Part shown: positions 4,192-35,908 of the stretch, in pieces
Layout of the letters: each line of letters begins with the position of its first letter
Numbering within the stretch: position 1 is the first letter of the stretch
Assembly: GCA_015056765.1 (NCBI GenBank)
Contig: SVFQ01000002.1
Location: 124,001 to 188,000, forward strand
DNA length: 64,000 nt
Reading direction: 5' to 3'
From: Lachnospiraceae bacterium
GTDB taxonomy: Bacteria > Bacillota > Clostridia > Lachnospirales > Lachnospiraceae
Made by a program: the position numbers and the translations under genes
Notes under the pieces: generated by a model
What the model was told of the DNA's origin: nothing
What the model saw: only the letters and a program-made list of their open reading frames with translations
The model's database searches: none

Positions 4192-6606
4192 TTATTTCTG
4201 TACAATATTTACAAGTCTGCCCGGTACGTAAATCTCTTTTACGATAGTGCCGGTCAGTTTGTCTGCCAGTGCTTCTTTTGCCTGTGCGATGACTGTATCT
4301 TTGTCTGCATCTTTGGCGATATTGATGGTAGCACGTACTTTACCGTTGATCTGTGCTGCGATTTCTACGGTGTCATCTACCAGTGCTGCCTCGTCATAGG
4401 TAGGCCATGGCTCATAAGCGATGGTGTCATCGTGACCCATGATCTGCCAGATTTCCTCACCTACATGAGGGCAAATGCAGGAAAGCATCTTGATTAAGCC
4501 TTCTGCATATTCTCTTGGGCATTTGCCTACTTTGTAGACTTCGTTGACGAAGATCATCATCTGGCTGATAGCTGTGTTGTAACCTAAGCTTTCGAAGTCT
4601 TCTGTAACTTTCTTTACAGTCTGATTGTAGACTTTAGTCAGGCTGCCATCGTCGGTATCCGTGATATTTTCAGCTTCGGTGAAGAAATTCCATACACGAG
4701 TGATGAATCTCTTTGCACCCAGTACGTTGTTATCATTCCATGGTTTGGATACTTCCAAAGGACCCATGAACATTTCATACAGACGAAGGGTATCTGCACC
4801 ATACTCTTCTACTACATCACTTGGGTTTACTACGAATTCAGGGAAACGTTTACCCATCTTGATGCCGTTAGAGCCTAAAATCATACCCTGATGAACCAGT
4901 TTCTTAAATGGCTCTTTGACAGGAGATAAGCCATTGTCATATAAGAATCTGTTCCAGATTCTGGCATACATCAGGTGTCCTACTGCATGCTCAGGTCCAC
5001 CTACATAAAGGTCTACAGGGAGCCAGTGTTTTAACAGTTCCTGATTGGCAAACTCTTTATCATTGTGTGGATCGATGTATCGCATATAATACCAAGAAGA
5101 ACCAGCAGAACCAGGCATAGTAGAAGTCTCTCTTACGCCGTCCACGCCATTCTTGTGGTACTGTTTCCATTCGGTAGCATTCTCTAAAGGTGCTTTGCCG
5201 TTCTTGCCTTTATAGTCTTCCAATTCAGGAAGTACCAAAGGAAGCTCTTCATCCGGCAAGAAGTAAATACTGCCATCTTCTCTATATACGCAAGGAACAG
5301 GCTCACCCCAATATCTCTGTCGAGCGAAAATCCACTCACGGAACTTGTAATTTACAGTTCTCTTGGCTACGCCCATCTTCTCTAATTTAGAAGTAATGGC
5401 TTCTTTTGCTTCTTCTACAGTGAGGCCTGTGAACTCTTCGGAATTGATGAGCTTGCAGCCCTTACCTAAGTAGTCCTGTTTCTCAAATGCACATTCAGAT
5501 ACATCTCTGCCTTCGATAACCTGAATCATAGGGATATTGTGTACCTGTGCATATTCAAAGTCACGCTGATCATGGGAAGGTACAGCCATAACTGCACCGG
5601 TACCATAGCTGGCAAGTACGAAGTCACCGATAAATACAGGTACTTCTTTGCCATTTACAGGATTAATGGCATAAACACCCTTTAATGGACAACCGGATTT
5701 GGTCTTGTTCAGTTCTGTACGGTCCATATCACTCTTCTTTAATGTCTCTGCGATATAAGCCTCTACTTCGTCCTTATTCTCTACACGGTCCATAAGGGAC
5801 TTCACGATATCTCCATCCGGAGCAAGTACCATGAAAGTGATACCATAGATGGTTTCGATACAAGTGGTGAAGATGGAGAATTTACCACCACCCACAAGTT
5901 CAAACTCTACTTCTACACCGGTGCTCTTACCGATCCAGTTGCGCTGCATCTCTTTGGTAGACTCCGGCCAATCGATTTCGTCAAGACCTTCTAATAGCTT
6001 CTCAGCAAAAGCCGGCTGATCGATAACCCACTGTGGCATGTTCTTACGTACTACAGGATAGCCGCCACGCTCGGACTTACCATCGATAACCTCATCATTG
6101 GAAAGTACGGTACCAAGCTCTTCACACCAGTTTACAGGCATTTCGATATGCTTTGCATAACCAGCCTCATATAATTTCTTAAAAATCCACTGGGTCCATT
6201 TGTAAAATTCAGGATCGCTGGTAGCAATCATCTTGGACCAGTCATAGTCAAAACCAAGTTCTTTTAACTGTTTGGAGAAAGTCTTGATATTCTCCTGGGT
6301 AAAGCCGTTTGGATGGTTACCTGTAGTAACAGCATACTGCTCTGCAGGCAAACCAAAAGAATCATATCCCATGGGATGCAGTACATTATACCCCTGCATT
6401 CTCTTCATACGAGACATGATATCTGTAGCGGTGTATCCTTCCGGATGTCCGGCATGAAGACCTACACCTGATGGATATGGGAACATATCCAGCGCATAGA
6501 ATTTCGGTTTAGAGAAATCCCAGACATCTGTCTTAAATGTCTCGTGTTCTTCCCAATATTTCTGCCATTTTTTCTCAATGGCCTTATGATTATAAGCTTC
6601 TGACAT
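4192..6606 (-). CDS. leuS: leucyl-tRNA synthetase (divergent signature motifs)
   Basis: 804 aa; MFPYPSGVGLHAGHPEGYTATDI (HIGH region), WYYMRYIDPHN, GGPEHAVGHLMYARIW; KMSKS equivalent reads KMGKR. Confidence 0.97.
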   Translation of the reverse strand: MSEAYNHKAIEKKWQKYWEEHETFKTDVWDFSKPKFYALDMFPYPSGVGLHAGHPEGYTATDIMSRMKRMQGYNVLHPMGYDSFGLPAEQYAVTTGNHPNGFTQENIKTFSKQLKELGFDYDWSKMIATSDPEFYKWTQWIFKKLYEAGYAKHIEMPVNWCEELGTVLSNDEVIDGKSERGGYPVVRKNMPQWVIDQPAFAEKLLEGLDEIDWPESTKEMQRNWIGKSTGVEVEFELVGGGKFSIFTTCIETIYGITFMVLAPDGDIVKSLMDRVENKDEVEAYIAETLKKSDMDRTELNKTKSGCPLKGVYAINPVNGKEVPVFIGDFVLASYGTGAVMAVPSHDQRDFEYAQVHNIPMIQVIEGRDVSECAFEKQDYLGKGCKLINSEEFTGLTVEEAKEAITSKLEKMGVAKRTVNYKFREWIFARQRYWGEPVPCVYREDGSIYFLPDEELPLVLPELEDYKGKNGKAPLENATEWKQYHKNGVDGVRETSTMPGSAGSSWYYMRYIDPHNDKEFANQELLKHWLPVDLYVGGPEHAVGHLMYARIWNRFLYDNGLSPVKEPFKKLVHQGMILGSNGIKMGKRFPEFVVNPSDVVEEYGADTLRLYEMFMGPLEVSKPWNDNNVLGAKRFITRVWNFFTEAENITDTDDGSLTKVYNQTVKKVTEDFESLGYNTAISQMMIFVNEVYKVGKCPREYAEGLIKMLSCICPHVGEEIWQIMGHDDTIAYEPWPTYDEAALVDDTVEIAAQINGKVRATINIAKDADKDTVIAQAKEALADKLTGTIVKEIYVPGRLVNIVQK

Positions 6607-6680
6607 GTTACGTCCTCCTCAGTACTAATACTCGTCTATTATATATCGAAACCCTTAAAAATCAAAGGAAATCTGCATGT

Positions 6681-13582: not shown

Positions 13583-15025
13583 TTAGTCATGTTGTAGTTC
13601 ATCCCAAATCTCAAAATAATTCTCGAATGTCTTACGACAACATTCTGGATTCTCTATCACAATACCAGGTATACGAAGGCCTGTTAATGTGAAAGACATG
13701 GCTACACGATGATCCTCATAAGTATGTATCAAATGTTTGTTTAAACCCTGTCTCGCAAAAGTAATGGAAAGTCGATCGCAATAAGCGGCTTCTTCTAGTG
13801 GATAAATTCGAATTCCATCTTCTAATTCTTCCACCCTTATCCCCAAGGTAGATAGATTATCTATGATAGCATGGATTCTATCACACTCCTGGCCTCTGAT
13901 ATGAGCAATGCCCGTAATTTCTGTGACAGAATCCGCAAAAGGTGCAATGGCCGCCAATGTCAGTGCCTGATCTGAGAACTGATTCATATTGATATGGACA
14001 CCATGTAATACAGGAAATCTGTATTGACGTTCTTTGCCTTCTGCGTCGTGGATGACATAATGATTTGTTTCCACAGGTGATTTTAGGCGCAAGCCCTTCT
14101 CACCCTCTTCTACCTTGCAGCCCATTTGCTCTAATACATCTAGGAACTTCAGGTCACCCTGATGCAAGTCGCGCCGGACATTCTCTACTTCCACTTCTCC
14201 GCCTAGGATAGCTGCGGCTGCATAGAAGTAGCACGCACCGGACATATCCACTTCAATCTGGTAATCCTGGACTTTGATTGGCTCTCTGCCATCTACTACA
14301 TAGGTATCTCCATCAAAGGTCACCGGAACGCCGAAGTCCTTCAACAAATCCATCGTCATCCGGATGTAAGTGCCGGTCTTCTTCTCACTGGTCACGCGTA
14401 TCTTTCCCACTACGCCGGATCCGGCAAAGGTCAGAAGCCACGCTGTCAGATACTGGGTGCTACGGCTGATATCTAATTCCAGTTGATATGTCTTTTGCGC
14501 AATTTTTTCAGCCTGCAGTTCGTTTTCTTCAGAAGACGCTTCATCTGAAAGCGCAAATAGGCCTCGAAGTTTGATTGGCAGATGACCTTTTTCCTCCAAA
14601 TACCGGAAAGAAACCCCCAAATCTTCTAGGGTGTGAAACAGCTCCTTCATAGGTCTTTTCTTCATCTGCTCCGAGCACTGAATCTCGTACTCTCCATCGG
14701 AAAAGGCTAAGAAGGAAGTCAGGAATCTGGCGCCGGTACCGGCAGAGCCCACATCGATAGTAGCTTTTTTCTTCGGTATATCCCTGCCACATCCATGAAC
14801 TGTGACTTGATAGTTTTTTTCATCTATCTCCAGCTCATAGCCCAAATCTCTCAGGCTTTGTAAGAAATGTCTGGTATCATCGCTGAATTGAACCCCGGAA
14901 ACGACAGAAGTTCCCTCTGACTTCGCTGCCAAAAGAAGGACTCGGTTGCTGAGGCTTTTCGACCCCGGTACCTTGATTATGTCCTTCATTTTGCGCTTCA
15001 TCATGGGAACTTCGTAAGTAGTCAT
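13583..15025 (-). CDS. aroA: 3-phosphoshikimate 1-carboxyvinyltransferase
   Basis: KVPGSKSLSNRVLLLAA; GSAGTGARFL; HTYEDHRVAMSF. Confidence 0.95.
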   Translation of the reverse strand: MTTYEVPMMKRKMKDIIKVPGSKSLSNRVLLLAAKSEGTSVVSGVQFSDDTRHFLQSLRDLGYELEIDEKNYQVTVHGCGRDIPKKKATIDVGSAGTGARFLTSFLAFSDGEYEIQCSEQMKKRPMKELFHTLEDLGVSFRYLEEKGHLPIKLRGLFALSDEASSEENELQAEKIAQKTYQLELDISRSTQYLTAWLLTFAGSGVVGKIRVTSEKKTGTYIRMTMDLLKDFGVPVTFDGDTYVVDGREPIKVQDYQIEVDMSGACYFYAAAAILGGEVEVENVRRDLHQGDLKFLDVLEQMGCKVEEGEKGLRLKSPVETNHYVIHDAEGKERQYRFPVLHGVHINMNQFSDQALTLAAIAPFADSVTEITGIAHIRGQECDRIHAIIDNLSTLGIRVEELEDGIRIYPLEEAAYCDRLSITFARQGLNKHLIHTYEDHRVAMSFTLTGLRIPGIVIENPECCRKTFENYFEIWDELQHD

Positions 15026-15039
15026 AATTATCTCCGCTG

Positions 15040-15384
15040 TTATTCCTGTGTGCCGTTATGAATCATGTCATAAATGCTAATCTTATTGGCATCCAGTCCT
15101 GCCATGCCAACAAAGGTAGCTCCATAGTTAAATACGGACTCGTCTTCCGGATTTACCTCGATACGAACAATCTTCAAGAAAGAGTGAATCACTTCACCGG
15201 TCCAAATACGAAGATTTGCTTCATATACGCCTTTGATTTCAAGTTTTGCAGGGCTTGTAAAACCAACACCAGTCTTAGACAAGTCTGTTACTTCGATTTT
15301 TGCTTCCTGGGTATCCCCCTGTAATCCTTTGATTACCAATTCGGAATTGAGTTCCAAACGTCTGCTTTTTCTACGATCTTCCAT
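15040..15384 (-). CDS. PilZ domain protein
   Basis: 114 aa; RRKSRR and DLSKTGVGF (RxxxR ... DxSxxG) c-di-GMP-binding-type motifs. Confidence 0.8.
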   Translation of the reverse strand: MEDRRKSRRLELNSELVIKGLQGDTQEAKIEVTDLSKTGVGFTSPAKLEIKGVYEANLRIWTGEVIHSFLKIVRIEVNPEDESVFNYGATFVGMAGLDANKISIYDMIHNGTQE

Positions 15385-15483
15385 AACCCACCTCTAAATC
15401 ATAAAATTGTTTTACCAACAATTCCATTGTAAAGCATTCCTACGCATTTGTCACTTTTCAATCAGGATAAATTCCTAAGCTTC

Positions 15484-16515
15484 TTAGTGAATAAACATAG
15501 CATCGCCGAAGGAGAAGAAACGATATCTCTCCTGCACCGCCACTTCATAAGCATGCAACACATGCTCTCTTCCTGCCAGGGCGCTGACAAGCATCACCAG
15601 GGTTGACTCCGGTAAATGGAAGTTGGTAATGAGTGCATCCAGTACCTGGAACTTATAGCCCGGATAGATGAAAATCTGGGTATCACCGCTTCCCGGCATT
15701 ACTTTACCATCTACCGCAGCGCTTTCGATGGTACGGGTAGAGGTAGTACCGACACAGATGACTCTGCCACCCTTTGCTTTGGTTTCATTGATGGCATCAG
15801 CCGCTTCCTTAGATACATGATAATACTCAGAATGCATATGGTGATTCAATACATTTTCTTCTTTGACCGGACGGAAAGTGCCAAGTCCAACATGTAGCGT
15901 CACATATACGAGACGCACGCCCTTTTCTTCAATTCTCTGAAGAAGCTCCTTGGTAAAGTGAAGGCCTGCTGTAGGAGCAGCTGCACTACCTTCATACTTT
16001 GCATATACAGTCTGATATCTGTTACGGTCCTGCAGTTTATGGGTGATATAGGGTGGTAAAGGCATCTCGCCTAAGCGGTCCAGTACTTCTTCAAAGATAC
16101 CTTCATAGGAGAACTGTACCAGTCGGTTACCATCCTCTAACACATCGATAATCTTTGCACTGAGAACGCCATCACCAAAGGTAATTTCTGCACCTACACG
16201 GCATTTCTTACCTGGTTTTACCAGTGTTTCCCAGACATCCTTCTCACGGCGCTTCAGGAGTAGAATCTCCACTGTCGCACCGGTATCCTTCTTCGTTCCC
16301 ATAAGTCTGGCCGGAATGACCTTGGTATCATTTAATACCAGGCAGTCACCGGGATTCAGGTCATCGATGATGTCATGAAATACCGCATGTTCGATTTCCC
16401 CTGTCACCTTATCCAGCTTCATGAGTCTGGAGGAAGATCGATCCTCCAGAGGATCCTGCGCAATCAGTTCCTCCGGCAGATCATAATAAAAATCACTTTT
16501 TAATAATTGTTCCAT
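15484..16515 (-). CDS. queA: S-adenosylmethionine:tRNA ribosyltransferase-isomerase
   Basis: [46 protein letters not shown]. Confidence 0.97.
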
Positions 16516-21530: not shown

Positions 21531-21745
21531 ATCCCTATATCCACTTTCGCAGATATAGGGACGATTTCTCGCGGTACCACCCTGATTCCTATAATCCTAT
21601 AGGCACTCTTGGACGTAACGTGTCTCCTACGGCCTAAACTACTGTGATTCATCCAGGCAGCTACAACGGGAATATGAGTCTTAATGTAAATAAGGAAGCT
21701 TACAGCCGGTGACTTCCTCTCTCTGAAAATAGGGATTAAGACCTT
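21531..21745 (-). promoter_or_regulatory. T-box leader (Phe specific) of pheST
   Basis: Minus strand AGGGTGGTACCGCG (T-box, 21570-21583), terminator TCCCTATATC/GATATAGGGA + TTTTTT, Stem I GGTCTTAAT...ATTAAGACT with AGAGAGAGGAAG...GGCTGTAAGCTTCC and probable TTC specifier in ATATTCCCG. Confidence 0.93.
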
Positions 21746-21775
21746 TATGCGTTGTCTACGCTTTTGGGCAAAATA

Positions 21776-21956
21776 AACCCCCAAAATGCCGATTCCTGTA
21801 ATTGACTCCTAGCTCGCGCTAGGTGGGCAACCGCAATCATATTTCTGCCTTCCTCCGAATCAAAAGATTAAGGCCTGACATCCACATGATAATGTAGGAA
21901 TCCCGTTTAAAGAAATGTAGGATCAAAATAACAGGAGTTGCCGAGCATTTCAGGTT
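21776..21956 (-). ncRNA. ssrS: probable 6S RNA
   Basis: About 180 nt; closing helix CCUGAAAUGC/GCAUUUUGGG plus UCCUGU/ACAGGA; terminal hairpin GCCUUAAUC-UUUU-GAUU...AAGGC; 3'-side hairpin CCUAGC-GCGA-GCUAGG in a large bubble; dedicated sigma70 promoter. Confidence 0.72.
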
Positions 21957-21962
21957 AAACTC

Positions 21963-33437: not shown

Positions 33438-34928
33438 TCATTTTAAATTAAGAAATGCTTTTATTTGATTTACCATTTCTTCTTTTTCACATACGTGATC
33501 ATGTACAACTTTTGCGTTGCGAATTTCCTCAATTGCTTTCGGAACTTCAACATTTCCAATTTTAGAAAGTTCGTCTACCAAGTCAAAATCAGACCAGCTA
33601 TCATATTTAGAATCAATAGCCGTCATGACGCTTCTGGTAAATTTGAAAGGAGATGCGGTACTTGCAATAATGCAAGGATTCGTATTCCCGGTCTTCTTTC
33701 TAAAGTCTTGGCATACACTACTGGCAACAGCTGTATGAGTATCCAGTACATAGCCACAAGACTCATATACTCGTTTAATCTCTGCTGCAGTCTCTTCTTC
33801 AGATGCATAACCGCCAAAGAAGTCTGCCATATTCTTTTTCATTTCGTCCGTAATGACATAGCTGCCCTTTGTCTGTAAATCAGACATGAGACTTGCGCAA
33901 AGCTTCGCATCTCTTCCGGCTACTTCATAAAGAAGTCGCTCCAAATTAGAAGAAATCAAGATATCCATGGATGGAGAGCTTGTGAGCATAAACTCACGAT
34001 TTCTATCATAGGTGCCGCTCTGGAAGAAATCAAACAGTACTTTATTTTCATTGGAAGCACATACAAGTCGATCAATGGGCACGCCCATTTCCTTTGCATA
34101 GTGTGCTGCCAGGATATTACCAAAGTTACCGGTAGGGACTACCACGTTTACCTTTTCCCCTGCCTTAATCTTCTCTTCTCCAAGTAATTTGGCATAGCTA
34201 TATACATAGTAAACAATCTGGGGAACCAGTCTGCCGATATTGATGGAGTTCGCTGAGCTAAAACGGTAACCTGCCTGTTTCATCTCCTCTGCAAAAGCAG
34301 CATCGTTAAAGATTTTCTTTACACCGGTCTGGGCATCATCAAAGTTACCGTGAATACCTACTACATAGGTATTATCTCCAACCTGGGTAACCATCTGTTT
34401 TTCCTGAATAGGACTGACTCCATTTTTGGGATAGAACACCACAATCTTGGTGCCTTCCACACCGGCAAACCCAGCCAAAGCAGCCTTTCCGGTATCTCCA
34501 CTGGTAGCTGTTAAAATCACGATTTCCTCTTTGATCTGATTCTTACGAGCTGCAGTAGTTAGTAGATGGGGCAAAATAGATAATGCCATATCTTTAAAGG
34601 CAATGGTAGCCCCATGGAATAATTCAAGATAATATGCATCTTCTGCGTAAGTAAGGGGTGCGATTTCCTCAGTATCGAACTTCTTATCATATGCTTTCTC
34701 AATGCAGTTTTGCAGTTCTTCTTTTGTAAAGTCTGTCAGGTACAGCTTCATTACCTCATAAGCTGTTTCCTGATAGGACATCTTGGATAATTCTTCTAAA
34801 GAAACATCCAGTGTCGGAATGTGATCCGGAACGAATAAACCACCGTCTTTCGAAAGGCCCTGCAAAATCGCCTGGCTTGCGGTGATACCTTCACCCTCAG
34901 ATCTGGTACTTAAATAATGAATAGCCAT
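33438..34928 (-). CDS. thrC: threonine synthase
   Basis: LFHGATIAFKDMALSILPHLL; TATSGDTGKAALAGF; VPTGNFGNILAAHYAK. Confidence 0.97.
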   Translation of the reverse strand: MAIHYLSTRSEGEGITASQAILQGLSKDGGLFVPDHIPTLDVSLEELSKMSYQETAYEVMKLYLTDFTKEELQNCIEKAYDKKFDTEEIAPLTYAEDAYYLELFHGATIAFKDMALSILPHLLTTAARKNQIKEEIVILTATSGDTGKAALAGFAGVEGTKIVVFYPKNGVSPIQEKQMVTQVGDNTYVVGIHGNFDDAQTGVKKIFNDAAFAEEMKQAGYRFSSANSINIGRLVPQIVYYVYSYAKLLGEEKIKAGEKVNVVVPTGNFGNILAAHYAKEMGVPIDRLVCASNENKVLFDFFQSGTYDRNREFMLTSSPSMDILISSNLERLLYEVAGRDAKLCASLMSDLQTKGSYVITDEMKKNMADFFGGYASEEETAAEIKRVYESCGYVLDTHTAVASSVCQDFRKKTGNTNPCIIASTASPFKFTRSVMTAIDSKYDSWSDFDLVDELSKIGNVEVPKAIEEIRNAKVVHDHVCEKEEMVNQIKAFLNLK

Positions 34929-35038
34929 TTCCTCATTCTCCTCATTTCATGTGTATTGTACTTCCAAACTCACATCTATTATAATATAACTGAAGTAACG
35001 TATAAAAACAAGGAAACTAGCGAAAAAGGACGTGTAAT

Positions 35039-35833
35039 TTGCATTATCCCGGCGTATACGAAACGGAACTAAAAGATGGCACCAAAAGTTATAGAGCCTC
35101 ACTTACGCACAAAGGAAAACATATTGCGTTAGGCTCTTTTTCTAGTGCAAAAAAGGCCTCCAAAGTCTATGAAGAGGGACATAAAGTACTGAAAGATAAA
35201 ACCTATCAGCCCCAAAACTACCGCAAATCCTTCTCTCTTCCTTTTGATAAATACATCTCCCTTATTAACTTACGAGATAATCGTATGTATTTCGCAAACC
35301 CGATTTATCTGGAGAAAAACTACTTTTCCTATTACTTATCGCCGGACAGAGTCCTGCGTTTTGATTCCGATGATCTCTTCTACTATTCCATGCATCGCAT
35401 CATGAAGCGCGGCAAACATCTTTTCATCGATGACTATGGTTCCCAGGTCTCCCTCCCCGGCAGATACGGCATCAGGAATTACGCCATCGAAGGCAAAGAC
35501 TACCGCTTTGTCAATGGGGACCACTACGATTATAGACATGCCAACATCGAAATCTATAATCCATATTATGGGATTGAAGAAATAGAGAAAAAAGGTGTTA
35601 CTAAATATCGTGCCAAAATCCATGTAAATGGATACTTTATCGTGGGAGTCTACAATACACAAATCGAGGCTGCTATCGCTTACAATAAAGCTGCCGATAT
35701 CCTAAAGGCTGCCGGCGTGAAAAAGAACTACGCTGTCAATTATATCGATGAGATTACCCAAAAGGAATACGCAGATATTTACAAAGAACTAACCATTTCG
35801 GAAACTATAAGGAATTATACCTGTCCATGCTAG
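35039..35833 (+). CDS. AP2 domain-containing protein (two AP2-like repeats with degenerate HNH-like linker)
   Basis: TTG start with AAAAGGA 8 nt upstream; N-terminal GVYETELKDGTKSYRASLTHKGKHIALGSFSSAKKASKVYE; C-terminal GIEEIEKKGVTKYRAKIHVNGYFIVGVYNTQIEAAIAYNKAADIL; middle VNGDHYDYRHANIEIYN resembles HNH homing endonuclease IDGDxxNNRxENLRxxN. Confidence 0.78.
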   Translation: MHYPGVYETELKDGTKSYRASLTHKGKHIALGSFSSAKKASKVYEEGHKVLKDKTYQPQNYRKSFSLPFDKYISLINLRDNRMYFANPIYLEKNYFSYYLSPDRVLRFDSDDLFYYSMHRIMKRGKHLFIDDYGSQVSLPGRYGIRNYAIEGKDYRFVNGDHYDYRHANIEIYNPYYGIEEIEKKGVTKYRAKIHVNGYFIVGVYNTQIEAAIAYNKAADILKAAGVKKNYAVNYIDEITQKEYADIYKELTISETIRNYTCPC

Positions 35834-35880
35834 TCTTACTCGGATTAGTAATCTTATCCTTTCAACAAAAGGCCAAAAGA

Positions 35881-35908
35881 AAGCCCGCAGAATTACCTGC
35901 GGGCTTTT
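35881..35908. terminator. bidirectional terminator
   Basis: aagcccgcag-aattac-ctgcgggctt. Confidence 0.7.

Follow-up and report, generated by a model that had tools for sequence, protein, structure and literature searches.

The window, a stretch of 64,000 nucleotides of Lachnospiraceae DNA, encodes a 264-aa AP2 / dead HNH / AP2 protein that is best explained as an endonuclease that was domesticated long ago and now serves as a DNA-binding regulator (probability roughly 0.64). The domestication of an HNH-AP2 endonuclease is well supported: computation shows its ancestry, that the catalytic set is lost, that the gene is inherited vertically as a single copy, and that strong purifying selection acts on it; DNA binding, transcriptional regulation, and the targets of the protein are what we infer.

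Gene locus and domain architecture

The gene lies divergent from thrC, and its features in the window are as follows (in brackets, what each assignment is based on).

33438 to 34928, minus strand: thrC, threonine synthase, the conserved divergent neighbor
34929 to 35038, no strand: divergent intergenic region between thrC and the AP2 gene, 110 bp
35023 to 35030, plus strand: Shine-Dalgarno-like AAAAAGGA, 8 nt 5' of the TTG start (sequence)
35039 to 35833, plus strand: AP2 / dead HNH / AP2 ORF, 264 aa (sequence, orthologue alignment, AF2 model)
35048 to 35197, plus strand: N-terminal AP2 domain, residues 4 to 53 (AF2 model, hhalign)
35198 to 35290, plus strand: linker with helix 69 to 81; K71, N77, and Y84 nearly invariant (AF2 model, alignment)
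35291 to 35569, plus strand: HNH-like central domain, residues 85 to 177 (hhalign, alignment)
35504 to 35509, plus strand: R156-F157, at the catalytic D-H position of HNH-AP2 nucleases (hhalign, alignment)
35570 to 35716, plus strand: C-terminal AP2 domain, residues 178 to 226 (AF2 model, hhalign)
35717 to 35830, plus strand: C-terminal tail, residues 227 to 264; N234 and Y244 nearly invariant (alignment)
35880 to 35907, no strand: perfect 11-bp inverted repeat AAAGCCCGCAG-AATTAC-CTGCGGGCTTT, terminator-like (sequence, read by eye)

The gene stands alone, starts with a TTG codon, and has a Shine-Dalgarno-like stretch of its own, the last of these as the preliminary description of this DNA had proposed. 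On the thrC strand, the intergenic region carries a promoter-like TTTATA-17-TATAAT (35006 to 34978), and the inverted repeat sits between the convergent AP2 gene and a GH25-type gene (the neighbor names thrC, SleB-like, GH25, transketolase, and gyrB-like used throughout are sequence readings, not database assignments). Elsewhere in the window (21554 to 21959, minus strand), Rfam places a 6S RNA (21774 to 21959) 6 bp upstream of a T-box leader (21554 to 21767) on the same strand.

The AlphaFold (AF2) model of the protein (pLDDT 92.1, pTM 0.72) has a beta-beta-beta-alpha unit at each end (residues 6 to 52 and 179 to 224), with strands 6 to 10, 16 to 24, and 27 to 34 followed by helix 37 to 52 in the N-terminal unit and strands 179 to 184, 187 to 195, and 199 to 205 followed by helix 208 to 224 in the C-terminal one. 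Slices of the two ends match the AP2 part of phage HNH-AP2 proteins (hhalign, E 1.6e-12 for the N-terminal and 6.6e-14 for the C-terminal slice) as well as one another (E 1.7e-11), in agreement with the AP2-like repeat originally noticed at each end. The AP2 fold of a three-stranded sheet and a helix is present at both ends in the AF2 model and by Foldseek, which retrieved plant AP2 domains including TEM1 and WRI1 from the PDB with weak E-values (best 5e-3) and probabilities of up to 1.0. A profile of 83 orthologues searched against the PDB found the plant double-AP2 factor WRI1 (5e-6), besides de novo TIM barrels that we rejected as chance repeats. Pfam AP2 is reached by 28 of the 83 orthologues (best 5.5e-6); the window protein itself does not match this model (PF00847) at the gathering cut-off, and searching the source genome with it gave no match either, so that AP2 membership of the window protein rests on profile-profile comparison. 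More generally, no useful Pfam or NCBIfam match was obtained for the window protein alone (a Pfam BetaGal_ABD2 match was below the cut-off and meaningless), and no model of these collections names the family. The AP2 / HNH-like / AP2 arrangement is far beyond chance because it is conserved in more than 100 genera.

HNH ancestry of the central domain

The window protein on its own matches PHROG families of HNH endonucleases. All 83 orthologues match phrog_99 (HNH endonuclease; best 5.5e-16) and 66 of them match phrog_953, with weak matches to Pfam HNH_3 in 14 of 83. Compared as a whole with phage HNH-AP2 proteins, the family gives 97.7% and an E-value of 1.8e-12 in hhalign, and its middle plus C-terminal AP2 domain are colinear with phage HNH-AP2 endonucleases. 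Foldseek of the AF2 model against viral models returned mostly HNH-AP2 endonucleases (best E 1.1e-9). An AP2-independent test compared the central slice with the HNH-only columns of 78 phage proteins, using 40 column shuffles as a control: the slice scored 23.1 (E 6.2e-4) and was colinear over 74 columns, while none of the 40 shuffles reached this score (maximum 16.9), so the middle is HNH-derived. Together with the C-terminal AP2 domain, the middle is the counterpart of an entire HNH-AP2 nuclease.

Matches to phrog_99 that we examined in other Lachnospiraceae genomes are separate proteins and not closer ancestors. At locus L302 (G111 contig 13), several HNH-like proteins of around 250 to 280 aa are clustered at 4326 to 6645 and 14654 to 15490; most of them keep the D-H-I-N motif, and their location is a probable mobile element.

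Loss of the catalytic site

The segment KDYRFVNGDHYDYRHANIEIYN of the window protein pairs with the HNH-AP2 core (..VDHINGDxLDNRxxNLRxxT), and the D-H of this core reads R-F; the preliminary description had aligned the middle of the protein in just this way, and correctly so. The N-G-D / D-x-R-x-x-N skeleton is retained from phage HNH-AP2 endonucleases, and their D-H-I-N reads x-F-x-N in the family. None of the 83 aligned orthologues has the catalytic D-H pair: position 156, where the Asp metal ligand would lie, varies freely, and the His column is Phe (F157) in 101 of 104 homologues, divergent families included, with a single homologue that has H at position 157 without the D. The same 104 homologues share no invariant histidine anywhere in the protein, and the loss of the catalytic residues first noticed in one sequence extends to all orthologues examined. 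The Asn that assists the general base (Asn87 of I-HmuI; PMC2816704) corresponds to the invariant N169. The QN-plus-linker segment of the phage enzymes is missing, since residue 178 already starts the AP2 domain and the C-terminal AP2 abuts the HNH-like part directly without the nuclease linker in between. The third metal ligand, the Asn that comes next in the nucleases (Asn96 of I-HmuI), would fall in this segment. With the D-H pair absent, the third ligand gone, and no invariant His, the catalytic set is gone.

Residues 159 and 164, usually N159 and D164, are D159 in 9 and N164 in 9 of the 104 homologues, with all variants in families related to that of the window; this exchange is perhaps a coordinated swap, and the two residues might touch each other within the inactive HNH fold.

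Distribution and inheritance

Orthologues, mostly 43% to 60% identical, are present in 119 of 299 Lachnospiraceae genomes (one per genus, with the family called by record names), and a scan of the genome collection yielded at least 550 loci carrying the gene; the loci listed are named Butyrivibrio, Lachnospiraceae, Parablautia, Agathobacter, and similar, besides a few otherwise named MAGs. The gene is also present in 5 other families of the order, and a search of around 280 genomes of the class gave no match outside the order. It is normally single-copy, multiple matches, seen in a few genomes, being split or fragment matches, and its pairwise distances track those of thrC (r 0.63 versus a permutation maximum of 0.13). 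Family f79, one of these 5 (loci L310 to L317), has orthologues of 342 to 377 aa that are extended C-terminally by a third AP2 domain; where checked (L310, L311, and L316), a divergent transketolase gene lies next to them.

We found neither a plasmid copy nor a true phage copy of the gene, and the apparent viral records that we examined are bacterial flanks with leuC/leuD. The "Bacteriophage sp." record MT837267 (49% match), the examined one of 2 unverified "phage" records, is a bacterial fragment whose neighbors match a chromosomal locus of the family. The conserved chromosomal neighborhood, the absent plasmid match, and the bacterial nature of this record led us to reject a mobile element, and with vertical inheritance and no mobility found, the gene is indeed the stable chromosomal gene outside introns and phages that it had been taken for. 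Another such viral record is IMG/VR contig L171, where the gene and leuC/leuD lie at the contig end as host flank adjoining phage-like sequence; the latter is likely a prophage close to the chromosomal locus of the gene.

Genomic neighborhood and upstream signals

A dead HNH-AP2 protein with 2 AP2 domains is most simply a DNA-binding protein. In favor of DNA binding, plant factors, among them DNA-bound WRI1, are matches of the AP2 fold, and the family-average net charge is positive in both the AP2 and the HNH-like parts. The arrangement of divergent promoters points to a regulator; against this reading count the weak Foldseek E-values to solved AP2 structures, a divergent gene that differs between families, and an operator search that gave mainly extended -10 signals. 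No family-wide operator emerged upstream of the gene, whether from enrichment of gapped words, from EM motif finding, or from held-out tests that set these regions against divergent controls. What the upstream regions of the family share is an extended -10, taTGnTAtAcT (held-out AUC around 0.67 versus the divergent control regions), which may reflect promoters that work without a -35 or else a site that overlaps the -10, and TATGNTATACT is enriched on both strands (9% and 11% versus 1% and 0% in controls). In Butyrivibrio loci L091 to L111, the region that separates thrC from the AP2 gene has near-palindromes, e.g., ACTTTGAGTACAAAGT and ACTTTGAATTATTAAAGT, as a possible operator that is absent in the window; palindromes of the type ACTTTG-N4-CAAAGT, noticed by eye upstream of the gene in some Butyrivibrio, are likewise absent in the window.

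The dead HNH-AP2 protein could also bind DNA in an architectural, replication, or repair role, as a nucleoid-associated or site-marking protein and not for transcription control. Its single copy, its retention across the order even where neighbors change, and the lack of an obvious operator at its own promoter would fit such a role, but we consider it doubtful given that the divergent promoter layout conserved in most loci is the usual layout of regulators and that the unusual extended -10 motif is enriched in divergent regions.

A special case of the regulator reading would be a dedicated local regulator of thrC or of a thrC / SleB-like transcription unit. The divergence from thrC that the preliminary description had pointed out is deeply conserved, as thrC lies upstream and divergent in around 110 of 138 loci and the layout recurs in 3 further families of the order, and the co-divergence of both genes (r 0.63) points the same way. 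However, a SleB-like cell-wall hydrolase gene sits between thrC and the AP2 gene in 58 loci, around 10 loci with complete flanks keep the AP2 gene without thrC nearby, and the divergent partner in 2 other families is a transketolase or gyrB-like gene. Due to this partner swap, thrC is unlikely to be a universal target, and the loci without thrC make it unlikely that the protein is only a thrC switch. The specific link to thrC is thus partly undercut while the divergence stands, and we regard a dedicated thrC regulator as unlikely.

Selection on the dead HNH domain

Conservation within the family peaks in the HNH-like part (residues 104 to 177), whose mean majority-residue frequency is 0.742 compared to 0.60 to 0.62 in the AP2 domains and whose invariant polar residues are Q136, R142, D154, R166, and N169. 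This conservation could indicate a nuclease whose active site was rebuilt, with these 5 residues as a new catalytic center, yet no histidine is invariant, the metal-ligand position 156 varies, the third ligand is gone, and inheritance of the protein is vertical and not by mobility, all of which make such an enzyme very improbable. A functionless, degenerating remnant of a homing endonuclease, as the lost catalytic residues alone might suggest, can be dismissed based on dN/dS far below 1 (around 0.04 to 0.1 in close pairs) and on the conservation of the protein, best in its HNH-like part, across more than 100 genera.

Proposed origin and relation to known systems

The ancestor of the domesticated endonuclease was a phage-type HNH-AP2 homing endonuclease, probably captured before the carrier families of the order diverged. 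Its HNH metal site was destroyed: the position of the Asp ligand was freed, the general-base His turned into Phe, and the Asn metal ligand disappeared together with the deleted linker. An extra AP2 domain at the N-terminus completes the AP2 / dead-HNH / AP2 protein. This protein would bind DNA, probably through the beta-sheets of its 2 AP2 domains, while the inactive HNH fold may add a third surface for binding DNA or a partner, and it may regulate transcription in trans, with its own divergent promoter region as a plausible target among others.

HNH-AP2 homing endonucleases have been described from, e.g., Tetrahymena, Trichodesmium, and phage RB49 (PMC5318435). The phage enzymes (phrog_99 and phrog_953) have an HNH domain followed by AP2, colinear with the central and C-terminal domains of the window family, but this family lacks their D-H pair, third metal ligand, and interdomain linker, has an extra N-terminal AP2 domain, and is chromosomal and vertically inherited. 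A comparable conversion is known for WhiA (DUF199), a degenerate LAGLIDADG homing endonuclease that is a transcription factor in Gram-positive bacteria and, like the window family, is a conserved gene that lost its metal and catalytic residues upon domestication (PMC3781837). The window protein is not WhiA, given that it has no Pfam match and an AP2/HNH fold instead of LAGLIDADG plus helix-turn-helix. WhiA is therefore an analogue from an unrelated nuclease family (LAGLIDADG versus HNH) of which the window protein is not a member, and while WhiA binds DNA via an added helix-turn-helix, the window family presumably does so via endonuclease-type AP2 domains. Arm-type AP2-like domains of phage integrases (PF13356 and PF14657) share the three-stranded DNA-binding fold and gave weak matches, but the window protein has no tyrosine recombinase domain.

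Plant AP2/ERF factors have been proposed to derive from HNH-AP2 endonucleases as well (PMC5318435). Among them, the double-AP2 factor WRI1 (7wq5) resembles the window protein in its 2 AP2 domains and is its best PDB match by both profile and fold, but the window family is a separate lineage that kept an HNH remnant between the AP2 domains as its best-conserved part. We know of no plant AP2/ERF factor with an HNH remnant between the domains. The plant factors would be a parallel outcome to the bacterial family, for which, or for any bacterial AP2 regulator in this group, we found no paper in the open literature (most subscription journals lie outside of it).

The protein is widespread and conserved in abundant gut and rumen bacteria and has no Pfam or NCBIfam name. 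With somewhat less than even odds, it may be an order-wide single-copy regulator that arose by conversion of an HNH-AP2 endonuclease into a transcription factor in which the dead nuclease domain persists as a working recognition module, a bacterial counterpart to the route proposed for plant AP2/ERF factors. The origin of AP2 factors from HNH-AP2 endonucleases rests on distant plant comparisons, and the family offers a visible intermediate in culturable anaerobes that kept AP2 and the nuclease fold under strong selection after the active site was gone, so that the conversion of an endonuclease into a regulator becomes directly testable in Butyrivibrio and relatives.
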